Of a stretch of 40,732 bases of DNA, positions 5,273 to 40,486 are shown piece after piece. The position numbers and the translations under genes were made by a program. Each line of letters begins with the position of its first letter. Positions within the stretch are counted from its first letter, which is position 1. The notes beneath the pieces were generated by a model. That model saw only the letters and a list, made by a program, of their open reading frames with translations, searched no databases and had not been told where the DNA came from. The stretch is from Desulfovibrio sp. (GTDB taxonomy: Bacteria; Desulfobacterota; Desulfovibrionia; Desulfovibrionales; Desulfovibrionaceae), in the NCBI GenBank assembly GCA_024699605.1, contig JAILPJ010000086.1, positions 1 through 40,732 on the forward strand. Reading direction: 5' to 3'.

Positions 5273-6454
5273 TCAAAGACCAATTTCCTCGTCACTGAGA
5301 TAGCAGGCCGGATCTTCAGCCCAGACATCGCCGTAGACCGCTTCAGCTCTGGCCCGGAAATTGCCGCCGCAGATCTTCAGATACCGACATTTGGCACAGC
5401 GCCCACCCACATAGGCTTGCTTGTGCTTCAGCTTGTGCAGAAGTTCAATCGTAGGGTCATCCCAAATCTGGGAGAAGGGCCGCTCCAGGACATTGCCAAA
5501 AACGTGTTCACGCCAGAACTGATCGGCATGGACCTTGCCGTCCCAGGAAATACAGCCGAAACCGCGACCTGAATTATTGCCTTCATTGTACTGAAGCAGT
5601 TCATAGACTTCTTCGGCGCGCTTGGGATCTTCTCGCGTAAGTCTCAGCCAGACATAGGGACCGTCGGCGTGATTGTCGACCGTGAGAATTTCCTTGGGAT
5701 GGCCGGCATCAAAAAGCTTGCGGGTCTCATCCATTATCAGGTCCAGCACCGCGCGCGTCTCCGCATGCGAGAGATCTTCCTGAATCATGGCCGAACCCCG
5801 GCCTGAATAGACCAAATGGTAAAAACAGGCGCGCGGCACTTCAAGATCCCGCAGAAGCCGGAAGATCCCGGGGATTTCTGCCACATTGCGCTTATTCATG
5901 GTGAAACGCAGGCCAACTTTAAGACCTTCAGCCTGACAGTTGGCAATACCCTCCAGCGCCTTGGCAAAGGCGCCTGAGACACCGCGGAAGTGATCGTGCA
6001 CCGCTTCCAAGCCATCCAGGGAAATGCCCACATAGGAAAGACCAACACTCTTGAGTTCCTTGGCCTTGGCTTGCGTAATCAAGGTGCCATTGGTGGAAAT
6101 CACCGCACGCATCCCTTTTTCCGTGGCATGCCGGGCGAGATCGACCAGATCTTTGCGCACCAAGGGCTCGCCGCCAGAAAAAAGCATCACCGGCGCGCCG
6201 TAGGCCGCCAGATCATCGATCATGGACAAAGCCTGCTCGGTTGAGATATCGTCCACACCTTCGAGGGTTTCGGCATGCGCATAACAGTGCACGCAGCGCA
6301 AATTGCAGCGCCTGGTCATATTCCAGACCACCACAGGCTTCTTATCTTCTGAAAACTGCAGAAGATGTGAAGGCAAAGAGCCTGAATGGCGACCGTAACG
6401 CAAGAAATCCGAGGGCTCTACCTGACCGCAGTACAGTTTTGATATACCGATCAT
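5273..6454 (-). CDS. ahbC: 12,18-didecarboxysiroheme deacetylase AhbC (radical SAM)
   Basis: Radical SAM enzyme that removes the acetate side chains of 12,18-didecarboxysiroheme to give iron-coproporphyrin III, the AhbD substrate. The open frame begins at a GTG at 6466, but GGAG sits 6 nt before the ATG at 6454, so MIGISKLYCG is the likely N terminus (393 residues). The SAM-cluster cysteines are C50-x3-C54-x2-C57 in NMTRRCNLRCVHC, followed by FSGGEPL. The C-terminal cysteines (CAKCRYLKICGG) fit a SPASM-like auxiliary cluster. The start ISKLYCG.VEPSD and the phrase LPSHLLQFSEDKKPVVVWN are typical of AhbC. It follows alaS by 15 nt. Confidence 0.92.
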   Translation of the reverse strand: MIGISKLYCGQVEPSDFLRYGRHSGSLPSHLLQFSEDKKPVVVWNMTRRCNLRCVHCYAHAETLEGVDDISTEQALSMIDDLAAYGAPVMLFSGGEPLVRKDLVDLARHATEKGMRAVISTNGTLITQAKAKELKSVGLSYVGISLDGLEAVHDHFRGVSGAFAKALEGIANCQAEGLKVGLRFTMNKRNVAEIPGIFRLLRDLEVPRACFYHLVYSGRGSAMIQEDLSHAETRAVLDLIMDETRKLFDAGHPKEILTVDNHADGPYVWLRLTREDPKRAEEVYELLQYNEGNNSGRGFGCISWDGKVHADQFWREHVFGNVLERPFSQIWDDPTIELLHKLKHKQAYVGGRCAKCRYLKICGGNFRARAEAVYGDVWAEDPACYLSDEEIGL

Positions 6455-6469
6455 TTCAGTCTCCACGCC

Positions 6470-9145
6470 TTACTTGGCGAGAAGTTGTTCAACCTTGGCA
6501 AAGCATTCAGCCAGCCCGGCAGGATTTGTGCCGCCGGCCTGAGCCAGATCGGGGCGTCCGCCACCCTTACCGCCGATACACGCTGCTGCTTGGCTGATCA
6601 GGGCGGGTGCCGTCAAGGTCTTGTGCAGATCACGTGAGACATAGACAAGCAAATTGACCTTTTCTCCCTGCACACTGGCCAGACAGACGCAGGCACTCTG
6701 ATCGAGATGGGAGCGCAGATCATCCATCAGCTTACGCAGAGCCGGTACAGGCACGTCTGGCAGTTGGACACAAAGGCAGGCAATGGCACCGATCTGCTTT
6801 TTTCTCGCAAGCAAACTCGGCACGTCAATGGCCTGGGCTTTGCCCTCACTGGTGGCCTTCCGCAATTTTTTGACATCGCTTTTGAGATTTTCGATGCGCT
6901 CACAGACTTTCTCTGCGCTATCGGCCTTCAAAAGCCCCTGCGCCTCATGCAGCACCTTTCTCTGTTTGACACAGAGGGCATAGGCTTTCTTGCCTGTCAC
7001 AGCCTCAATCCGTCGTGTGCCACTGGCCACACCGGACTCCGAAACGATCAGAAAAAGTCCGGCTTCACCGGTCCGGCCCAGATGCGTGCCACCGCACAAT
7101 TCCCGCGATTCCAGATGCTCGTCAGAGCCTATGGACACAACGCGCACCGTATCTCCATATTTTTCATCAAAGAGTGCCATGGCACCTGAGGCCTTGGCTT
7201 TTTCGCGGTCCATCTCCTCTGTGGTCACGGGCCAGTCGGACAAAATGGCCTCGTTGACAGAGGCTTCGACCTTGGCCAATTCCTCTTCGGTCATGGCCGC
7301 AAAATGCGAAAAGTCAAAACGCAGCCGCTCTCCATCCACAAGGGAGCCCATCTGATGTACGTGGCTGCCCAAAACCTTACGCAGAGCAGCATGTAACAGA
7401 TGCGTGCAGGAATGGTTGCGCGCACAGGCCAGCCGCTCTTCCCTGGCCACATCAATGCTTACGCTGTCGCCCACATGCAGCTCGCCGCGCTCAACCTCCA
7501 CAGAGTGCACAATCAAGGTGGGTACGGGCTTGGAGCAGGTGAGAATCTTCGCCTGGGCTGAAAAAGAACGGATGCTGCCCTGATCGCCGGTCTGTCCGCC
7601 GCTTTCACCGTAACAGGGGGTCACATCACAGATCAGAAAGCCTCTGCTGCCTTCTTCAAGATGAGAACATTCTTGCCCCTGCCCATCTAAGAGCAGAAGG
7701 ACCCGCGCTGTTTCCGACAGGTGACTATAGCCTGTGAAACGCGATGCAAGGCCCTTGGCCGCCAGACGCTTGAACACTTCCTCGATATCACCGGCACTGC
7801 CAAACACACCGGCCTGTTTCTGGCTGGCTCGGGCACGTTCACGCTGTTTGGCCATATTGGCTTCAAAGCCAGCCGCATCCACCGTAAAGCCGCGTTTGCC
7901 GGCCACATCATTGACAATATCCAAGGGGAAGCCATGGGTATCGTGCAGAAGGAACGAAAGATCGCCTGGGATGCAGTGTTCTCCCCTGGCCTCAAGTTTG
8001 GCCATTTCCGCTTCAAGCAGGCGCAGACCATTCTCCAGAGTCTGTGAAAAACGCACTTCCTCTTCATGCACGACTTTGGCAATGAAGTCCGCCTGCTCAC
8101 AGAGCTCCTGATAGGTGTCGCCCATCACTTCAACCACGCGTCCCACCACCTTGTAAAGGAAGGGGTCGCGCACACCGAGAAGATGGGCAAAGCGCAGGGC
8201 TCTGCGGATTAAACGGCGCAGGACATAGCCGCGGCTTTCATTGGAGGGCAGAACACCTTCAGAGATAAGAAAGGCCGCAGCACGACTGTGGTCGGCAATC
8301 ACCCTGAGCGCCGTGTCCACATCATTGGTGTCGGGAGCGCTGAAACTGTAGGTGACATTGGCCAGTTTGGCCGCATATTGAATGAGATCTTGAAACAGAT
8401 CACAGTCAAAATTGGAGCGTTTGCCCTGGCAGACAGCGGCGATACGCTCAAGGCCCATGCCGGTGTCAATATTCGGTGCCGCCAAAAGACTGCGTGAACC
8501 GTCCTGCGCCTGATCGAACTGGGTAAAGACGAGATTCCAGATCTCCAGGAAACGGTCACAGTCACAACGCCCGATACCGCAATCAGGTCCGCAGGCCATG
8601 TCGCTGCCCTGATCAATGTAAATCTCTGAACACGGTCCGCAAGGACCAGTATCGCCCATCGTCCAGAAATTATCCTTCTCGCCCATGCGCACAATGCGCT
8701 CTTCGGGGAGATGGGCAATTTCCTGCCAGAGCTTGAACGCTTCATCATCTTCCCGGAAAATCGTCACCCAGAGTTTGTCTGCCGGCAGCTCGAGCTCTTC
8801 CGTCACAAACTGCCAGGCCCAGGTGATGGCTTCCTTCTTGAAATAATCGCCGAAGGAAAAATTCCCGAGCATCTCAAAAAACGTATGATGCCTGGCCGTG
8901 CGCCCCACATTCTCCAGGTCATTGTGCTTTCCTGAGACACGCAGGCATTTCTGACAGCTTGTGGCTCTGCTGTAGGAGCGCTTTTCAGCACCCAGAAAGA
9001 GCTTTTTAAACTGCACCATACCGGCGTTGGTAAACAGCAGGGTTTTGTCGTCAGGAGGGATCAATGGTCCTGACGCCACAATGGCATGGCTCTGGCGCTG
9101 AAAAAACTGCAGATAGCGTTGACGGATTTCGCTGGCGCTTAGCAT
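6470..9145 (-). CDS. alaS: Alanine-tRNA ligase
   Basis: Class II alanyl-tRNA synthetase of 891 residues, a normal full length. The N-terminal catalytic domain begins EIRQRYLQFFQRQSHAIVAS and contains FTNAGMVQFK and the motif-2 region around RTARHHTFFEMLGNFSFGDY. The editing domain shows both metal-binding pairs: HSCTH (H-x3-H) and CGGTH (C-x3-H). A DHHA1-type C-terminal domain with a glycine-rich GGKGGGRPDLAQAGG completes it. AAGGAG lies 11 nt upstream of the ATG. It starts 26 nt after recA and ends 15 nt before ahbC, so it is probably co-transcribed with both. The recA-alaS linkage is seen in other bacteria. Confidence 0.97.
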   Translation of the reverse strand: MLSASEIRQRYLQFFQRQSHAIVASGPLIPPDDKTLLFTNAGMVQFKKLFLGAEKRSYSRATSCQKCLRVSGKHNDLENVGRTARHHTFFEMLGNFSFGDYFKKEAITWAWQFVTEELELPADKLWVTIFREDDEAFKLWQEIAHLPEERIVRMGEKDNFWTMGDTGPCGPCSEIYIDQGSDMACGPDCGIGRCDCDRFLEIWNLVFTQFDQAQDGSRSLLAAPNIDTGMGLERIAAVCQGKRSNFDCDLFQDLIQYAAKLANVTYSFSAPDTNDVDTALRVIADHSRAAAFLISEGVLPSNESRGYVLRRLIRRALRFAHLLGVRDPFLYKVVGRVVEVMGDTYQELCEQADFIAKVVHEEEVRFSQTLENGLRLLEAEMAKLEARGEHCIPGDLSFLLHDTHGFPLDIVNDVAGKRGFTVDAAGFEANMAKQRERARASQKQAGVFGSAGDIEEVFKRLAAKGLASRFTGYSHLSETARVLLLLDGQGQECSHLEEGSRGFLICDVTPCYGESGGQTGDQGSIRSFSAQAKILTCSKPVPTLIVHSVEVERGELHVGDSVSIDVAREERLACARNHSCTHLLHAALRKVLGSHVHQMGSLVDGERLRFDFSHFAAMTEEELAKVEASVNEAILSDWPVTTEEMDREKAKASGAMALFDEKYGDTVRVVSIGSDEHLESRELCGGTHLGRTGEAGLFLIVSESGVASGTRRIEAVTGKKAYALCVKQRKVLHEAQGLLKADSAEKVCERIENLKSDVKKLRKATSEGKAQAIDVPSLLARKKQIGAIACLCVQLPDVPVPALRKLMDDLRSHLDQSACVCLASVQGEKVNLLVYVSRDLHKTLTAPALISQAAACIGGKGGGRPDLAQAGGTNPAGLAECFAKVEQLLAK

Positions 9146-32417: not shown

Positions 32418-33914
32418 ATGTTTTTCGAGGAGCATCATGTCGACAGGGGAGCGCCGGGTCAGGAACTGCCCTTCAGTTATGCCCGTACGCTCTCCTGGCT
32501 TTCTCTGGTTTTCATTCTGCTCACCAACCTTGTCCTTTCCTTCTTTATTTCCAATTCAGCGCGCGAAACGCTGCTCACCAAGCAGAAAGAATTCGCCAAT
32601 CTCCTCGTGGAAAATCTCAACAATCAGATCTTCAGACGTTTTGCCCTGCCCACCATCCTGGCACGCGGACGCATTGCCCTGAGACAGCCCACCCAGTACG
32701 AACATCTCAATCGTGTCGTGCAATCGGTGATACAGGGCTTGCCGGTGGCGCGCCTGCGCATCTACGATTTCTCCTATCTCGTGGCCTTTTCCACAGCCAT
32801 TGAAGATCTCGGCCGCGCAGGTCTGGCCAGCCCCAAGCTCGACAGCATTCTGCATGGCGGTGAAAGCGTCTCCGAAATCATCGCCAGTTTTCCCGCCTGG
32901 CAAGCCCCCTTCCGTCTGCCTCTGAAACCAGGCACCTTTGTGCTGAGAGTCTTAGCCCCACTGCGCGGAGAGCCACTGCCTGGACGTGATGACATTCCCA
33001 TCATGGGGGCGCTCGAGCTCACGCAGGACATTACGGAAGACTACGAACGCGTGCTGGCTTTTCAGGGCATTATCGTGGTGCTCTGCCTCTTATCCTCGGT
33101 CATTCTCTTTGCCTTGCTGCTCGTCCTCATTCATCGCTCGGAACGCGTCATAGCCGAGCGTATGTACAAAAACCGCCTGCTTGAAAATGAGCTGCACAGC
33201 AATGAACGGCTGGCCAGTATGGGGCGTGTGGTCGCCAGTATTGCCCATGAAATTCGCAATCCCCTGGGCATTATCCGTTCCAGTGCGGAACTGCTGCAGC
33301 GTCGCACGGAAAAGACCGATACCGGTACAGCCCGTCTTCTTGGCGCCATCTATGACGAATCCGTGCGCCTTTCTCAAACCGTGAACGATTTCCTCGATTA
33401 TGCCCGCCCCCGCAAACCCAGACAGGATCTCATCGACGTCAATCTGATCCTCGATCAAGTCCTGGCTTTTCTGGAAGGGGAATTTGCCAAATGTTCCGTC
33501 GTTGTTGAGCGGAGAACGCGCGAAGTCACACTTCTGACGCAGGGAGACAAAGATCTGCTCTACCGGGCCTTCTACAATATTCTGATCAATGCTCAGCAGG
33601 CCATGGCGGGGCCCGGACAGATTGAAATCACGGCCAATCTTTGCCGTAATGACGAGACAAGACAGCTTGAGCTGATCTTTACGGATTCAGGCCCTGGCTT
33701 TGACCAGTCGACCATTGATCACATTCTCGATCCCTTTTTCACCACCAAGGACGGTGGCACAGGACTGGGCCTGCCCATTGTCCAATCCATCATCACAAGC
33801 CACGCAGGCAGCATCCATCTCGACAACGCCCCCTCGGGCGGAGCCAGAATTCGGGTGCTTTTACCGGAATGCGTACCAGAACATCAGCAACCAAGTGAGC
33901 AAACGTCCAAATAG
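32418..33914 (+). CDS. Membrane sensor histidine kinase
   Basis: The 498 residues have TM1 at 24-45, a periplasmic sensing domain of about 170 residues, TM2 at 216-238, then HisKA and HATPase domains. The phospho-acceptor is His277 in SIAHEIRNPLGIIRSSAEL. The N box is NILINAQQAM, G1 is IFTDSGPGF and G2 is GGTGLGLPIVQSI. This NtrB/ZraS-like type often pairs with NtrC-type regulators, and one follows at 34046. The periplasmic domain gives no ligand clue. The ATG at 32418 has a weak ribosome site. A strong GAGGAG at 32427-32432 precedes an out-of-frame ATG at 32437 whose 81-codon frame I regard as spurious. Confidence 0.92.
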   Translation: MFFEEHHVDRGAPGQELPFSYARTLSWLSLVFILLTNLVLSFFISNSARETLLTKQKEFANLLVENLNNQIFRRFALPTILARGRIALRQPTQYEHLNRVVQSVIQGLPVARLRIYDFSYLVAFSTAIEDLGRAGLASPKLDSILHGGESVSEIIASFPAWQAPFRLPLKPGTFVLRVLAPLRGEPLPGRDDIPIMGALELTQDITEDYERVLAFQGIIVVLCLLSSVILFALLLVLIHRSERVIAERMYKNRLLENELHSNERLASMGRVVASIAHEIRNPLGIIRSSAELLQRRTEKTDTGTARLLGAIYDESVRLSQTVNDFLDYARPRKPRQDLIDVNLILDQVLAFLEGEFAKCSVVVERRTREVTLLTQGDKDLLYRAFYNILINAQQAMAGPGQIEITANLCRNDETRQLELIFTDSGPGFDQSTIDHILDPFFTTKDGGTGLGLPIVQSIITSHAGSIHLDNAPSGGARIRVLLPECVPEHQQPSEQTSK

Positions 33915-34002
33915 ACGCAAGCGACAGCCCAAGCGCACCAAGCTTTTCCTCGTCACGGCAAAACGTCTGTTCACGATTGTAACCATGGAGGCAGCGTTTC
34001 CT

Positions 34003-34026
34003 CCCCGTCGATGACAACGGGGTTTT
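34003..34026 (+). other. Attenuator-like hairpin between kinase and regulator
   Basis: CCCCGT (34003-34008) and ACGGGG (34017-34022) pair across an 8-nt loop and are followed by TTTT. It lies 19 nt before the ATG of the response regulator, within a 131-nt spacer that has no gene. It could lower expression of the regulator relative to the kinase. Confidence 0.5.
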
Positions 34027-34045
34027 CACGCTGAGACAGACATTA

Positions 34046-35428
34046 ATGAAAAAACACGCGCACATTCTCATCCTGGACGATGAGAAAGGCTATCTCCTCG
34101 TTTTGCAGACCCTGCTCGAGGACGAAGGCTATCAGGTCACAGCCCTCAATGATCCAGAAATGGCGCTCGCCTTTCTGCAGGAAAGTGAAGTCGACGTCGT
34201 TGTGACCGACATGAAAATGCCCAAGATCAGCGGCAGCGAAGTCTTACAGGAAATCAAAAAAAGCTGGCCGCATCTGCCCGTTTTGATCATGACAGCCTTC
34301 GGCTCAATCGAAAGCGCTGTGGAAGTGATGAAATCAGGTGCCTTTGACTACATCACCAAGCCCTTTTCCAACGACGAACTCTTGCTCTCCATCAACAATG
34401 CCGTTGAGCTCTCCTATGCCCATCAGCAGTATCAACTGCTGCAACAGGAAATGGAAGAGCGCTATGACATCCACAAAATCGTTGGCAGCAGTCGTGCCAT
34501 CCGCAGCGTCAAGGAAATGGTCGACAGGGCAGCGCCCATGCGTTCGAGCATTCTCATTTGCGGAGAAAACGGCACAGGCAAAGAGCTTACGGCCAAAGCC
34601 ATCCATTACGCCAGTCCGCGCAAGGACAAACCCTTTGTCACCGTAAACTGCCGTGCCCTTTCGGCAGATCAGCTGGAAAGTGAGCTGTTTGGCTGTGAAC
34701 AGGAGCAGTCACAGGCCGGAGCCATTGCCCTACGCCGAGGACGCGTGGAACAGGCCAACGGAGGAACGCTCTTTCTGGATGAGGTCTCGGAACTCTCGCT
34801 CGATCTGCAGGTCAAATTACTCAGACTGTTGCAGGAGCGCTGTTTCGAGCGCGTGGGAGGAAGTGAAGTTTTGCAGGCAGATATCCGTCTCGTAGCCGCG
34901 ACGGACAAAGATCTCAGTCGCCTTGTGGAGGAGGGAACCTTTCGCAATGATCTCTATTACAGACTGAATGTCGTCGAAATCAAACTGCCACCGTTACGTG
35001 AACGCCGTGAGGACATCCCCTTGCTGGTGACCCACTTTGCGCGCAAGGTTTTCGAAGAAAACAATATGCCGCCCAAAAGCTTTAGTACCAAGGCCCTGAA
35101 TTATCTCACAGGCTACGAATGGCCGGGTAATATGCGGCAACTGGAAAATGTGGTGGAAAGCTGCCTGGTGCTCGGCTCAGGGCAGGTCATTGACGTCGAT
35201 GACCTGCCGGCGGCTATTCAGGACGAGGAGGCCCAATTCAAAAGCGCCGTTGACCTCCTGCCCTTTCCCCTGGATTTGGCCGATACACTGGAAAAAATCG
35301 AGGCAGCCCTGATCAGACGGGCCTTGGTACGCTGCGAGCTGGTACAGGTTAAGGCCGCAGAATCCCTGGCCATTTCCAAAAGTCTTTTACAGTACAAGCT
35401 GAAAAAATACGGTATTACCGGTCACTAG
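34046..35428 (+). CDS. NtrC-family response regulator lacking the GAFTGA motif
   Basis: The 460 residues have a receiver domain (acid pocket D11/D12, phospho-acceptor D55, the LIMTAF threonine, TKPF lysine), an AAA+ domain and a Fis-like helix-turn-helix. ATPase features are intact: Walker A GENGTGKE (173-180), Walker B TLFLDEV, and the arginine-finger region RNDLYYRLNVVEIKLPPLRER. The loop that contacts sigma54, normally GAFTGA after ELFG.E, reads QEQSQAGA (219-226) and is one residue longer. Sigma54 activation is therefore doubtful. The HTH (LVQVKAAESLAISKSLLQYK) is still recognisable. The kinase partner lies directly upstream. The last 14 nt overlap rlpA on the other strand. Confidence 0.92.
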   Translation: MKKHAHILILDDEKGYLLVLQTLLEDEGYQVTALNDPEMALAFLQESEVDVVVTDMKMPKISGSEVLQEIKKSWPHLPVLIMTAFGSIESAVEVMKSGAFDYITKPFSNDELLLSINNAVELSYAHQQYQLLQQEMEERYDIHKIVGSSRAIRSVKEMVDRAAPMRSSILICGENGTGKELTAKAIHYASPRKDKPFVTVNCRALSADQLESELFGCEQEQSQAGAIALRRGRVEQANGGTLFLDEVSELSLDLQVKLLRLLQERCFERVGGSEVLQADIRLVAATDKDLSRLVEEGTFRNDLYYRLNVVEIKLPPLRERREDIPLLVTHFARKVFEENNMPPKSFSTKALNYLTGYEWPGNMRQLENVVESCLVLGSGQVIDVDDLPAAIQDEEAQFKSAVDLLPFPLDLADTLEKIEAALIRRALVRCELVQVKAAESLAISKSLLQYKLKKYGITGH

Positions 35429-36140: not shown

Positions 36141-36685
36141 CAGACTTCCTTTTGTTGCTCCCCGCTCAACTGCCGCTACCGACGAAGAAAGCGTTCAAGC
36201 CGCGCCGGTATTCTCAAGAAAAACGGTTCCTCTCACCTGACAGATGCCTGCTCGCACTCAGCGAAAAGGCTTTTGACGTGCATAAGAGAAGAGGGAGACG
36301 TTTTTTTGAAAAAAGGGGAAGCCCGTCGCTCTTTGCAGCGGAAAAGAACGAAAAAAACGCCTTGTTTCCTGCCGCAAAGCCGGGCCCATTTAGGGTTTTT
36401 CATGTCAAAGATATATATTACTACACGTTTTCCCTCTAAAAATCAAGGCACCTTTTGAGAACTATAACATACATCGCATAGTCCGAATCTCAGCGCTGCC
36501 CCTTGATCCTGCCCGTTCCGCCTTGACACATTCTTATCTCTTGATAAAAAAAAGTTGGTTTTCCTCATTTTTTCCAGCACGGTTCGCTTTTTTTCTTAGA
36601 CGTCATGCCGCCGGCAGAAAATCCCCACAGCCAAGACCATTGTCTGCCCTTCTGTCGACTGGCTCTTAACTCAGGAGAAATCTGC
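36141..36685. other. Long divergent spacer upstream of the hydrogenase genes
   Basis: Spacer of about 545 bp between rlpA (minus) and the flavoprotein gene (plus). I see no gene. A 95-codon plus-strand frame (36152-36439) has low-complexity composition and no ribosome site. The sequence is rich in A- and T-runs, with an AT-rich block GATATATATTAC near 36409-36420. The best promoter is at 36523-36550. No clear Rex, Fur or FNR site was found. Confidence 0.4.
36523..36550 (+). promoter_or_regulatory. Putative promoter of the hydrogenase operon
   Basis: A perfect TTGACA (36523-36528) and TAAAAA (36545-36550) are separated by 16 nt. The resulting leader of about 130 nt to the ATG at 36686 is A/T rich. 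Confidence 0.45.
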
Positions 36686-38671
36686 ATGCCAGAACTTGTC
36701 TACGGCGTATGGGATGGTGTGCCCTACGACAACCGAAAATCAACATCGCCTTCGACTCCAGCGAGTATCCAGCTTGACGCTCTCGACAGGTTTAACGACG
36801 ACAATGCCGTGTCTGTGCTGATGAGCGATCGCGGCTTTCTCGTTTTTGACGAATCTGTTCCTCTGCTCTGGGCTTTACAAAAACACTTCATGAAAGTTGC
36901 TTCGGAATCCTGCGGCAAATGCTCTCCCTGCCGCACCGGCGCCCCGCTGATCTGCAATCTCCTGAATAAAGCCATGAACGGCGACGCCGCAGACGTTTTC
37001 CCCCTGCTTGAAGAAATCGCCCAGCAGATGACAAACACATCCCTATGCGGTGTCGGGCAAACCGGCCCCCAACCACTCCTTGCCGCCCTGACCTTTTTCC
37101 CCAAGGAATTACGGGCGACACCGCAGGATATGAAACATGGCTTCTACGCGACCTTGACCAGCCCATGTATCGAGGCCTGTCCGGGTCTAGTCAACATTCC
37201 GCGCTACATTGACTATATCAAGGACGGCCATATCGATCTTTCCGCCAATCTTGTTCTCCGTCACTATCCGCTCGTCGGCAGCTGTGGTCGCGTCTGTGTC
37301 CGCAGCTGTGAAAGCGCCTGTCGTCGCGGCAAAATCGACGCCCCGATTTCCATTCGCAATCTCAAACGTTTTGCCGCTGACAAGGCCTTAGCCAGTGGTC
37401 TGCTCAAACCCGCAGCAGTGCCTCTGGACAAAAAGGAAAAAGTCGCTGTGGTTGGCGCCGGTCCCGTCGGCATTGCCTGCGCGTATCATCTGCTTCGTCG
37501 CGGCTATCCTGTGGACATTTTTGAGGCAAAAAATGAAGCCGGCGGCATGATCCGCTACGGCATTCCTATCTACCGCCTGCCCAAGGATACCCTGCAGGAG
37601 GAAATAGCCATTGTCACCTCCATGGGCGGGAAGATCGCTTTTGGACAAAAGCTTGGCCGCGACTTCCATGTGGACGATCTCTTTGCCAAGGGCTACAACG
37701 CCGTATTTCTGGCTATGGGCTGTCCCAAGGGCAGCTACTTGGGAATGCCCGACGAAGACACCAGTCTTGCCGACTACGAAAACGGCATTGATTTTCTCGA
37801 GCGTGTCTATGAAGGCGTGAACAAAGGACAAGCCCCTGTTCTGGAAGGCGACGTGGTTGTGGTCGGCGGCGGCAATGTGGCCATGGACTGCTGCCGGGCC
37901 GCACAGAGAATCTCCAACGGCAAGGTGCACGTCATCTACCGACGCACTGAAGAAGACGCGCCCGCAGATCCTGAGGAAATTGCCGCAGCCAAGGCCGAAG
38001 GCGTACAATTCCATTTTCTCACAGGCCAGCACAGCCTGATTTGTGAGCAGGGCAAAATCACGGGGCTCAAAATCCAAGACATGGAGCGCACAGAGCCCGA
38101 TGCCAGTGGACGCCGTGGTGTACGCGCCATTGAGGGGAGTGAACATATTCTCCCCTGTGCACACGTTATTGCGGCCATTGGTCAGCAGACAGAAAAAGAT
38201 GCGCTTGTGGAAAACGACCAGATCAACCGTGACCGCAAAAACTGCATTGTGGTCAATTCCGCACAGGAAACGAGCCGCCCGGGCGTCTTTGCCGCCGGAG
38301 ACTGCACATCCGGTCCACGCGCCAAAGGTCCTACGACCATGATCATGGGAATGGGTCAGGCCTATTTTGCGGCGCGCTCCATTGAACGCTATCTCTCCAA
38401 GGGAGAGGTCTCGTTTGACTCTCGCTGGCGCATGACCGAGCTCATCGCGCAGGGCAAACTCATGCCGAAGGATGAGCCAGTAGTAGCAGCTAAAATCCCC
38501 ACCCCGCGTGTGGCACTCAAAGAACTCACCCCTGAAGATCGCAGCCAGAATTTTGCCGAGGTCGAACAGACCATGACGCAGGAGGAGGCCTGGAGTGAAG
38601 CCGCACGCTGCATGCGCTGTTACCGCATCTATTCCGTTGTGACAGCCAAACACATTCCCGGCGGGGAATAA
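36686..38671 (+). CDS. NuoF-type Fe-S domain fused to GltD-like NAD(P)H flavoprotein
   Basis: Predicted diaphorase subunit of the following [FeFe] hydrogenase. AGGAG lies 8 nt before the ATG; the frame from 36605 is longer but lacks one. Residues ~55-140 match only the C-terminal 4Fe-4S part of NuoF: ESCGKCSPCRTG (C76, C79, C82) and SLCGVGQTGPQP (C121). The FMN/NADH-binding part of NuoF is absent. Residues ~155-600 are GltD/NfnB-like: two 4Fe-4S sites (C161, C165, C200, C204, C208, C212), the FAD dinucleotide motif VAVVGAGPVG (253-262), and a second dinucleotide motif VVVVGGGNVAMD. That motif is followed by VIYRRTEEDAPA, whose arginines suggest NADPH. The C terminus has CMRC. It is 15 nt upstream of the hydrogenase gene. 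Electron bifurcation is possible but not shown. Confidence 0.87.
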   Translation: MPELVYGVWDGVPYDNRKSTSPSTPASIQLDALDRFNDDNAVSVLMSDRGFLVFDESVPLLWALQKHFMKVASESCGKCSPCRTGAPLICNLLNKAMNGDAADVFPLLEEIAQQMTNTSLCGVGQTGPQPLLAALTFFPKELRATPQDMKHGFYATLTSPCIEACPGLVNIPRYIDYIKDGHIDLSANLVLRHYPLVGSCGRVCVRSCESACRRGKIDAPISIRNLKRFAADKALASGLLKPAAVPLDKKEKVAVVGAGPVGIACAYHLLRRGYPVDIFEAKNEAGGMIRYGIPIYRLPKDTLQEEIAIVTSMGGKIAFGQKLGRDFHVDDLFAKGYNAVFLAMGCPKGSYLGMPDEDTSLADYENGIDFLERVYEGVNKGQAPVLEGDVVVVGGGNVAMDCCRAAQRISNGKVHVIYRRTEEDAPADPEEIAAAKAEGVQFHFLTGQHSLICEQGKITGLKIQDMERTEPDASGRRGVRAIEGSEHILPCAHVIAAIGQQTEKDALVENDQINRDRKNCIVVNSAQETSRPGVFAAGDCTSGPRAKGPTTMIMGMGQAYFAARSIERYLSKGEVSFDSRWRMTELIAQGKLMPKDEPVVAAKIPTPRVALKELTPEDRSQNFAEVEQTMTQEEAWSEAARCMRCYRIYSVVTAKHIPGGE

Positions 38672-38686
38672 TTTAAGGATCTGGTC

Positions 38687-40486
38687 ATGAAAGCGTATAT
38701 CAACAAAAAAGCCTACGATTTTGAAGAGGGCGAAAGCATCCTGACCGTAGCCCGCAGAAACGGAATTTTCATTCCCTCCCTCTGTCATTTTCAACCACTG
38801 CACCATCGCCCAGCCACCTGTCGAGTCTGTCTTGTCCAGGTCACTGACAGCCAAGGTACGCGAATGACCACAGCCTGTGATACGCCCTTACGTGATGGTC
38901 TGATCGTGGATACCTTCTCCAAAAAAGTCCGCGACATGCAGCGTATGCAGGTGGAAATGATTCTGGCCGACCACCATCAGGACTGTGCGGCCTGTGCCCG
39001 ACACGGAGACTGCGAGCTGCAGGATTTAGCCGAAGCTGTGGGACTTTCCCGCAATCGCTTTGCCGATCTTTTGCAGAAACCTGCCGCAAGCCGTACCGTT
39101 GATCAGTCGGCACGCGCCATGCTGCGTGACATGACCAAATGCATCCGCTGTCTGCGCTGCGTCACAGTCTGCCGCAGCATCCAGGGTGTTGCGGCCTTGA
39201 CGGTTGACGGCAAAGGCCTTGGGACAGCCATCGGTGTGGGTATGGCGCCGGATCATCACTCCTCGGCCTGTATCCAATGCGGGCAGTGCACCCTCGTCTG
39301 TCCCACTGGGGCCTTGGCTGAACGCGATGAAAACGATACGGTCCTCGACTATCTCACCAATCCTGATGTCACCACAGTCTTCAGCTTTGCGCCTTCGGTG
39401 CGTGTGCTGATGGGCGACGAATTCGGTTTTCCTGCCGGCAGCAATGTTGAAGGAAAAATTGTCGCCGCCTTACGCGCCATAGGTGCCGATGTGATCATTG
39501 ATACGGATTTTGCCGCTGACGTGGTCATCATGGAAGAAGGTACGGAACTTTTGGGACGTGTGAGCAATGGTGGCACTCTGCCCATGTTCACCTCCTGCTG
39601 TCCCGGCTGGATCAATTTTGCCGAAAAACATCTTCCCGAAATTCTTCCGCACATCTCCACCACCCGTTCACCCCAAGCGGTCTTAGGGGCTCTGGCGAAG
39701 ACGTACCTGCCCAAACAGATGCAGATGGATCCTGCCCGTATCAAAACGATCTCCATCATGCCCTGCATCGCCAAGAAAGATGAAGCTGCCAGGGCACAAC
39801 TGGCACGCGACGGGGTTCCGGATGTTGATGTCGTTATTTCCGTCAGAGAATTTGCCAGATTACTGCGCAGGCTAGGGGTTGATCTGCTCAATATTCCGCC
39901 TGAGCCTTTTGACAATCCCTTCATGAGCGCCTCAACAGGTGCGGCCGTGATTTTCGGAACCACCGGCGGTGTCATGGAAGCCGCCGTACGTACTGTCTAC
40001 GCGGTCTTGAACGGCAAGGAACTGCAGGGCATTGCCACAGCGCCCTTGCGCGGTCTTGACGGTGTACGCACAGCCGAACTCGATCTTGGCCCCAAGGTCG
40101 GCAAGGTAAAGCTCGCCATCTGCCATGGTCTGCGAAATGCCCGTATTCTTGCCGAAGAAGTGCTCAGCGGCAAATCGCCGTATACCTTCATTGAAGTCAT
40201 GGCCTGTCCGGGCGGCTGTATCGACGGTGGTGGCTCAAGCCGCGTCAAAGGCCAGTACCATCCTGGCCGCGTACGCCGGCAACAGTCGCTTTATGAAATG
40301 GATAGCAATATGGTTTACCGCCAGTCGCACAACAATCCCCAGATTAAGGCGCTCTACGACAATTATCTTGAAAAACCCAATTCAGAGCTGGCCCATCACC
40401 TGCTCCATACCCACTACACCAATCGTTACGAGCAGTCTTGTGCCGGCATTGAAGAAAATATGAAGAAAATCACCTTGGCCGAATAA
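38687..40486 (+). CDS. [FeFe] hydrogenase catalytic subunit, multi-cluster type
   Basis: Cytoplasmic H2-evolving or -oxidising enzyme of 599 residues. An N-terminal 2Fe-2S domain has C33, C45, C48 and C64. A His/Cys 4Fe-4S site follows (H96, C100, C103, C109), then two ferredoxin-type clusters (C152/155/158/162 and C195/198/201/205). The H-cluster motifs are complete: L1 TSCCPGW (302-308), L2 MPCIAKKD (359-366) and L3 EVMACPGGCIDGGG (503-516). The small-subunit-like tail follows from about residue 530. The domain order matches NuoG-like HydA/HndD hydrogenases. It has no signal peptide, and no hydEFG maturation genes are in the window. It ends 34 nt before a strong terminator, so the operon is just two genes. 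Confidence 0.95.
   Translation: MKAYINKKAYDFEEGESILTVARRNGIFIPSLCHFQPLHHRPATCRVCLVQVTDSQGTRMTTACDTPLRDGLIVDTFSKKVRDMQRMQVEMILADHHQDCAACARHGDCELQDLAEAVGLSRNRFADLLQKPAASRTVDQSARAMLRDMTKCIRCLRCVTVCRSIQGVAALTVDGKGLGTAIGVGMAPDHHSSACIQCGQCTLVCPTGALAERDENDTVLDYLTNPDVTTVFSFAPSVRVLMGDEFGFPAGSNVEGKIVAALRAIGADVIIDTDFAADVVIMEEGTELLGRVSNGGTLPMFTSCCPGWINFAEKHLPEILPHISTTRSPQAVLGALAKTYLPKQMQMDPARIKTISIMPCIAKKDEAARAQLARDGVPDVDVVISVREFARLLRRLGVDLLNIPPEPFDNPFMSASTGAAVIFGTTGGVMEAAVRTVYAVLNGKELQGIATAPLRGLDGVRTAELDLGPKVGKVKLAICHGLRNARILAEEVLSGKSPYTFIEVMACPGGCIDGGGSSRVKGQYHPGRVRRQQSLYEMDSNMVYRQSHNNPQIKALYDNYLEKPNSELAHHLLHTHYTNRYEQSCAGIEENMKKITLAE

Follow-up and report, generated by a model that had tools for sequence, protein, structure and literature searches.

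The [FeFe] hydrogenases that HydDB places in group A2 are labelled "glutamate synthase-linked (putative)" after the GltD-type neighbour gene that defines the group, and HydDB describes their role as undetermined (PMC5037454). A GltD-type protein is also part of StnABC, in which it feeds electrons into a NuoG-type Fe-S chain and a subunit of NuoF type; structure and mutants identified the GltD-type flavin adenine dinucleotide (FAD) of StnC as non-bifurcating, with Lys170 and Cys114 at the proximal cluster, where NfnB has Glu (PMC10482914). We analysed a two-gene locus at one end of a 40,732-nucleotide stretch of Desulfovibrio sp. DNA (assembly GCA_024699605.1, contig JAILPJ010000086.1; hereafter the window), which encodes a flavoprotein, here called FP, and HydA, the catalytic subunit of an [FeFe] hydrogenase. 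From the sequence evidence set out below we propose, with a probability of roughly 70%, that FP and HydA would form a cytoplasmic, reversible, non-bifurcating H2:NADP+ oxidoreductase.

The window is an entire contig (C70) of a draft genome (2.76 Mb, 114 contigs, 94.7% complete) from a Desulfovibrio-like host whose closest relatives are of rumen origin, and it ends 246 bp past HydA. The two genes lie where a preliminary description of this DNA had placed them, as open reading frames (ORFs) and the conserved FP start confirmed, and in the ORF listing they adjoin on the + strand with 15 bp between them. The start at 36686 is conserved across relatives (MPELVYGVWDG...) and has AGGAGA just 5' of it; the longest ORF opens at 36605. 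The features of the pair are as follows (aa, amino acids).

36686..38671, + strand: FP, flavoprotein, 661 aa (ORF, conserved start, Pfam, PDB sequence matches)
36896..37117, + strand: NuoF C-terminal [4Fe-4S] domain PF10589, proposed HydA socket, with C76, C79, C82 and C121 (Pfam, alignment)
37160..37396, + strand: GltD-type Fe-S domain (Fer4_20, profile 30-111), with C161, C165, C204, C208 and C212, and K227 at the FAD-proximal cluster position
37439..38323, + strand: FAD and NADP(H) Rossmann domains (Pyr_redox_2), with GxGxxA at G394-A399 and R419/R420 (Pfam, alignment)
38540..38635, + strand: permuted first Fer4_20 segment (profile 1-32) at the FP C-terminus, with C642 and C645
38687..40486, + strand: HydA, M3 [FeFe] hydrogenase catalytic subunit, 599 aa (ORF, Pfam, NCBIfam, PDB sequence matches)
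38696..39058, + strand: HydA N-terminus, NuoG-like, with [2Fe-2S] and His-Cys [4Fe-4S] domains; the NuoF piece would be expected to dock here (Pfam)
39374..40231, + strand: H-cluster domain Fe_hyd_lg_C with L1, L2 and L3 motifs (Pfam, motifs)
40268..40426, + strand: Fe_hyd_SSU domain, fused at the HydA C-terminus (Pfam)

By its domains and alignments, FP is the last part of NuoF, with PF10589 kept and the flavin mononucleotide (FMN) domain gone, fused to a GltD/NfnB-type FAD protein, an arrangement that the preliminary description had recognised and that Pfam and phmmer bore out. In a 688-residue numbering, which is used for Pfam and phmmer positions and equals the 661-residue numbering of residue names such as C76 and K227 plus 27, Pfam placed NADH_4Fe-4S at 98-171 (E 1e-19), Fer4_20 at 186-264 (6.6e-21) and Pyr_redox_2 at 279-573 (2.4e-31), the last two exceeding their family cut-offs. 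Complex1_51K, the NuoF FMN domain (PF01512), gave no Pfam match in FP at E<=0.1, and Fer2_4, NADH-G_4Fe-4S_3 and Molybdopterin domains likewise gave no Pfam match. In phmmer, FP 28-177 aligned with residues 376-532 of HydB 7q4v_B and 361-517 of 9bov_B, and FP 185/186-672 with residues 101/102-565/566 of 8oh5_C (StnC) and 9bov_A; the PRK12771, PRK12814 and gltA models matched FP strongly, yet each under its own cut-off. An AlphaFold model of FP alone was weak (mean predicted local distance difference test [pLDDT] 64, with residues 158-243 below 50), and Foldseek with this model agreed with the sequence matches, the best for the GltD part being the StnABC/NfnABC structures (8OH5, 9BOV).

The Fe-S domain of the GltD part is circularly permuted, as judged from its profile matches. 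The main Fer4_20 match opens at profile position 30, whereas Fer4_20 of GltD proteins normally opens with a CxxC segment, and that segment was found at the C-terminus of FP (23.8 bits, alone under the family cut-off), where C642 and C645 were Cys in 86/86 aligned FP-family proteins. Thus the cysteines for two clusters seem to be present and divided between the two ends of FP. Because the sequences of the solved NfnABC/StnC proteins align with the same C-terminal segment, the permutation appears to be common to them and FP; in the portions of the literature covered, we found neither the permutation nor the Lys at the FAD-proximal cluster of FP described. In the NuoF piece, C76, C79 and C121 were likewise Cys in 86/86 proteins and C82 in 80/86. 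Gly replaces C82, the third Cys of the NuoF cluster motif, in six FP relatives (L070, L141, L144, L146, L147 and L149); in these the domain persists, but its cluster may be changed or missing. C200 was Cys in 26/26 hydrogenase-linked FPs, in the Collinsella relative described below and in 10/59 other rows, including the three nearest ones linked to formate dehydrogenase (FDH); the position is otherwise V, L, I or T, with Cys also in L015 and L016, and C200 could possibly be a tuning ligand near a cluster.

HydA carries Fe_hyd_lg_C (1.6e-84), Fe_hyd_SSU, Fer2_4, NADH-G_4Fe-4S_3 and 4Fe-4S dicluster domains in Pfam, and its N-terminus resembles the N-termini of NuoG, HoxU and FDH in sequence matches. 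The motifs TSCCPGW, MPCIAKKDE and EVMACPGGC, which we take to be L1, L2 and L3 respectively, are present, in keeping with the intact H-cluster claimed earlier. TIGR02512 identified HydA as a group A [FeFe] catalytic subunit (487.1 bits vs a cut-off of 405.95), and the NCBIfam group A6 model scored 710 bits, below its cut-off of 765. The best solved-structure match was HydA1 7q4v_A, presumably that of A. woodii, over HydA residues 8-579 (E 9.4e-159).

Compared with the described systems, the window pair is of a type already named, with its function open: by gene content it fits HydDB A2, having a group A catalytic subunit that adjoins a GltD-like gene. It differs in that the classifier reads the gene 3' of HydA whereas the partner here is 5' of it, in that A2 asks for no NuoF domain whereas FP has PF10589, not PF01512 (by Pfam; HydDB uses CDD models), and in that the A2 proposal is NAD for glutamate synthase whereas NADP(H) is proposed here (PMC5037454). 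No conserved gene was seen 3' of HydA in relatives, judged by ORF sizes. With StnABC/NfnABC (8OH5, 9BOV) FP shares Lys at the proximal cluster, besides the best sequence and Foldseek matches of its GltD part; StnC, however, is a NuoG-like and a GltD part in one chain, with electrons passing to FMN in StnB, whereas in the window pair it is the hydrogenase that carries the NuoG-like part, and the NuoF piece is without the FMN domain. HydA aligns with the HydA1 subunit of the bifurcating (A3) HydABC/HndABCD enzymes, and FP contains the last part of HydB, but HydC (NuoE), the FMN/NADH domain and the C-terminal ferredoxin domain of HydB are missing from the pair. NfnAB (P. furiosus 5JCA; 4YLF, which we take to be the T. 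maritima enzyme) has a GltD-type FAD/NADPH protein with two [4Fe-4S] clusters, as FP does, but has Glu rather than Lys at the proximal cluster, and its partner is NfnA and not a hydrogenase. In the full-text literature searched, with subscription papers outside its scope, we found no description of a NuoF-C/GltD fusion as a hydrogenase partner.

We infer NADP(H) use by FP from GxGxxA (G394, G396 and A399) and R419/R420, since all are invariant in 86/86 aligned FP-family proteins; GxGxxA has been proposed as a mark of NADP(H) (PMC7483475). In the proposed mechanism, H2 would be split at the HydA H-cluster, whose motifs are observed and whose activity is presumed, and electrons would travel singly along the [4Fe-4S]/[2Fe-2S] chain of HydA to FP. 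The NuoF-derived [4Fe-4S] domain of FP would plug into the NuoG-like N-terminus of HydA, much as NuoF, in complex I and HydABC, sits on the surface of a NuoG-type N-terminus. From there the permuted GltD domain, with its two [4Fe-4S] clusters, would lead the electrons to the FAD, which, to judge from its family, would gather two of them and transfer hydride to NADP+; we assign the nicotinamide chemistry to the FAD because the FMN/NADH site of NuoF is missing. In vivo, H2 pressure would set the direction, and a separate NfnAB-like pair of the same genome could relay NADPH electrons to NADH and ferredoxin.

Profile searches of the draft genome (94.7% complete) returned no match to PF01512 or to PF01257 (NuoE), for which 9/14 and 7/14 control genomes, respectively, had matches. 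This agrees with the absence of NuoE and of the NuoF FMN domain given in the preliminary description, and the nuoE/nuoF-like genes elsewhere in the genome that, in its terms, would have completed a standard complex were not found in these searches. NuoF-FMN matches were over the cut-off in 10/17 other pair-carrying genomes and in none of the remaining 7; because the host genome shows no NuoF-FMN match and these seven none over the cut-off, the pair has to work without NuoF at least there. The genome also encodes HydF (contig C5, 517.6 bits), the NfnAB-like pair just mentioned (L015, contig C29; 278 aa of PRK06222 type and 459 aa of gltA type), in which the Fe-S segment, different from that of FP, is unpermuted (CxxC before the C...CP motif), and further GltD-like proteins besides FP. 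A second hydrogenase of group A, 418 aa, lies at L013:1348-5704 on contig C5 with HydF about 2 kb downstream, and ORFs beyond HydF there look NifH-like by eye.

Among the alternatives to an H2:NADP+ oxidoreductase, the one that survives best is that the pair bifurcates or confurcates, with the FAD bifurcating as in NfnB or with ferredoxin docking on HydA, such that NADPH and reduced ferredoxin would together give H2, or the reverse. FP is homologous to NfnB, and HydA has every cluster of the M3 set found in ferredoxin-linked enzymes. However, StnC Lys170 corresponds to FP K227 (and StnC Cys114 to FP I171, counted along the phmmer alignment), and position 227 was Lys, not the Glu of NfnB, in 86/86 aligned FP-family proteins; the four GltD-like paralogs aligned from the host genome have Glu there, two of them (L018 and L019) being only distantly related. 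Moreover, Pfam recognised in the pair no second flavin domain, NfnA-like subunit, FMN domain or ferredoxin-type C-terminal domain of HydB, and an NfnAB-like pair is encoded separately. We therefore regard FP as conducting rather than bifurcating, because its proximal cluster position is StnC-like in having Lys and a single chain leading to the FAD can be recognised, and consider bifurcation by the pair unlikely. Of the reading offered in the preliminary description, the anatomy and, as an interpretation of motifs and domains, the H2:NADP(H) enzyme were upheld; bifurcation at the FAD was not, as neither a second flavin nor a second acceptor chain could be recognised, and the named A2 group and the FP relatives beside FDH and complex I genes had been overlooked.

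A somewhat less probable alternative is that the pair is NAD(H)-linked or passes its electrons to another protein, for instance as reductant for glutamate synthase, as suggested for A2 in HydDB (PMC5037454); FP does have GltD-family domains. GxGxxA and the invariant RR, however, indicate NADP(H), and other GltD-like proteins are available in the genome. The longest ORF in the window (1002 aa; the genome was not searched for GltB) is also under the size of the large subunit of a bacterial glutamate synthase. That the pair is only a part, completed by NuoEF encoded elsewhere into a bifurcating complex of HydABC type with a GltD arm, is highly improbable: the NuoF-FMN matches in ten of the other pair-carrying genomes and a distant locus, L150, that brings HydA genes together with NuoE and a fusion of full NuoF to GltD speak for it, but the host genome shows no match to NuoE or NuoF-FMN, seven of the others are without NuoF-FMN over the cut-off, and FP would already fill the NuoF socket if its docking is NuoF-like.

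Several points weigh against the proposed oxidoreductase. R297, which corresponds to R201 of NfnB and R239 of StnC, is invariant in 86/86 aligned proteins and is shared with the bifurcating NfnB; StnC also has an Arg equivalent to the N5 Arg of NfnB, without the contact (PMC10482914). The rule that Lys marks a non-bifurcating FAD derives from one studied enzyme, NADP is preferred over NAD on motifs only, and HydA retains all M3 cluster domains, such that ferredoxin could dock there. A single-chain AlphaFold model of FP plus HydA was unusable (pLDDT 39), which leaves FP-HydA docking as inference. Two loci of the family (L069 and L108) pair a shorter FP-like protein (match from residue 45) with an FDH-like partner and no HydA, the distance correlation of FP and HydA reported below is explicable by shared vertical descent alone, and the Collinsella FP is closest by identity (40%) to the nuo-linked L072 and not to the hydrogenase-linked FPs.

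The survey of the pair across genomes that the preliminary description had called for showed that it recurs. When 149 genomes of the family (Desulfovibrionaceae) were searched with FP, 36 matched at E<=1e-100, GltD-only proteins included, and a full-length FP (from residue 1-3 to 658-660, at least 718 bits) was present in 17/149 genomes of 7 genera, the host's own included. HydA lies directly 3' of FP in 26/26 distinct full-length Desulfovibrionaceae loci examined (the window, L003-L012 and L093-L107, after dropping L053, L054 and L092 as duplicates of L004, L010 and L008; L069 and L108 are not among them). The partner table leaves out L009, L134 and L138 for overlapping ORFs, and L009 was counted from a separate comparison. 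Within the genus to which the window belongs, FP had no match at 1e-100 in nine of the genomes listed, and the pair is therefore patchy. The same pair occurs in Collinsella aerofaciens (Actinomycetota) on a 0.9-Mb plasmid-database record (L159), as a 610-aa FP with PF10589, Fer4_20 from profile position 29 and Pyr_redox_2, followed by a 584-aa [FeFe] hydrogenase; this was the only one of 11 matching plasmid records with at least 80% of FP covered, and 61 pattern matches in viral contigs included no relative. A gene for a 253-aa 4Fe-4S dicluster protein lies 5' of the Collinsella pair (L159:3758-4519). Over 27 pairs, FP and HydA distances were strongly correlated (Mantel r 0.95, with 0/5000 permutations as high), which shows a stable pair, not contact, and the cluster cysteines, K227, GxGxxA and RR of the nucleotide site were unchanged in 27/27 pairs, that of the window included.

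FP-like proteins are not confined to hydrogenases. A search of 395 genomes of the phylum with FP gave 232 that matched at 1e-100, a number that includes GltD-only proteins and is not a count of fusions, and neighbourhoods were taken from the top of the match lists, not at random (60 phylum and 20 family hits), with partners called by motif, their labels in the tree set by hand, and Pfam-confirmed only at L055, L062, L150 and L159. In Desulfobacterota, FP-like proteins, mostly of about 650 aa, adjoin HydA, adjoin FDH, or sit in nuo operons between NuoD and NuoG/NuoH; 16/82 loci counted had none of the four partner motifs. Pfam confirmed the FDH partner at L055, the FP domains at L058, and a nuo locus at L062 with NuoD, FP (5992-7956, minus strand), NuoG-like and NuoH. 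The slot held by the FP-like protein is the one in which we would expect NuoE/NuoF, and its presence there suggests a possible NADPH entry to complex I.

Other nuo operons with an FP-like protein between NuoD and NuoG/NuoH include L059, L064, L112, L113, L118, L125-L127, L129, L130 and L135, among others, and in L058, L063, L061 and L117 NuoH follows FP with no NuoG-sized same-strand ORF between. The nuo-linked genomes cannot be taken as NuoF-less, as a NuoF-FMN match turned up in 26/28 of them; that of G021 and that of G095 share a contig with the FP-like gene, no more than about 6 kb away. The FdhA partner is interrupted at L055, L057, L066, L119 and others, where the ORF restarts at VAGLA.AFGSGAMTN after a 12-bp gap; the break point is presumably the selenocysteine position of formate dehydrogenases, and the break is likely a selenocysteine codon. 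In one distant genome, a cluster at L150:2374-9560 comprises two HydA genes flanking NuoE and a 1032-aa protein in which a complete NuoF, FMN domain included, is fused to GltD. Pfam matched all of these except the first HydA, and on its gene content the cluster is a candidate for an enzyme joining H2 with both NADH and NADPH. Nine NuoF-FMN matches fall in frames of 1022-1085 aa, and given these long frames NuoF-GltD fusions may be common.

In a tree of 85 FP rows, from which L109-L111 were left out since their FP match spans the GltD part only, a branch with a support of 100 (SH-aLRT, Shimodaira-Hasegawa-like approximate likelihood ratio test) separates the 26 hydrogenase-linked FPs from the other rows, and under midpoint rooting these 26 adjoin three FDH-linked FPs. 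A sister relationship of the Collinsella FP to the Desulfovibrionaceae hydrogenase FPs was not settled in a second tree, which includes it and leaves out 13 near-duplicates: its branch is 2.34 long, and the constraint costs 17.3 log-likelihood units (approximately unbiased test, p-AU 0.162). What HydA, FDH and NuoG share is a NuoG-type N-terminus, and it is mainly because the diverse partners of FP have this in common that we read the NuoF remnant as a socket. On this argument, FP could be a portable NADPH input/output module, consisting of a NuoF-cut socket and a permuted StnC-type GltD, that is swapped among [FeFe] hydrogenase, formate dehydrogenase and complex I, with NADPH driving Desulfobacterota complex I at the NuoE/NuoF place and with A2 hydrogenases as H2:NADP+ enzymes; this is a tentative proposal, to which we give slightly less than even odds.

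The anatomy of FP and HydA suggests a simple, testable job for A2 hydrogenases, namely H2:NADP+ chemistry. A2 hydrogenases of Sharpea, Olsenella and Oribacterium figured among the potential H2 sinks upregulated in low-methane sheep in a rumen study, which treats the group as functionally unresolved (PMC6776011). For the NuoEFG-less complex I of sulfate/sulfur metabolising bacteria, the donors proposed are ferredoxin and an unknown oxidoreductase (PMC4287179 and PMC12142623); the literature passages covered make no mention of NADPH as complex I donor. If the module proposal is true, FP relatives would be candidates for electron entry to such complexes, and the pair would offer a compact natural H2-to-NADPH enzyme for biocatalysis.

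A sigma-54 promoter was rejected, as the window held 73 matches against a shuffle mean of 61.5, 6/100 shuffles were as high, and the + strand from 35953 to the FP start had no match. The two-component genes at 32418-35428, tried as regulators of the pair, were not counted as part of the system: judged by ORF size only, L003 and L004, the closest relatives, are the only ones with like-sized ORFs next to the pair, and L005-L010 and L012 have none, L011 beginning at the pair with its upstream side outside the contig. Near the pair in two Mailhella genomes there is an extra ORF on the minus strand, of 496 aa at L008:7113-8603 and of 478 aa at L009:10670-12106, and the former (as in its L092 copy) resembles a hydrogenase H-domain at 27% identity.

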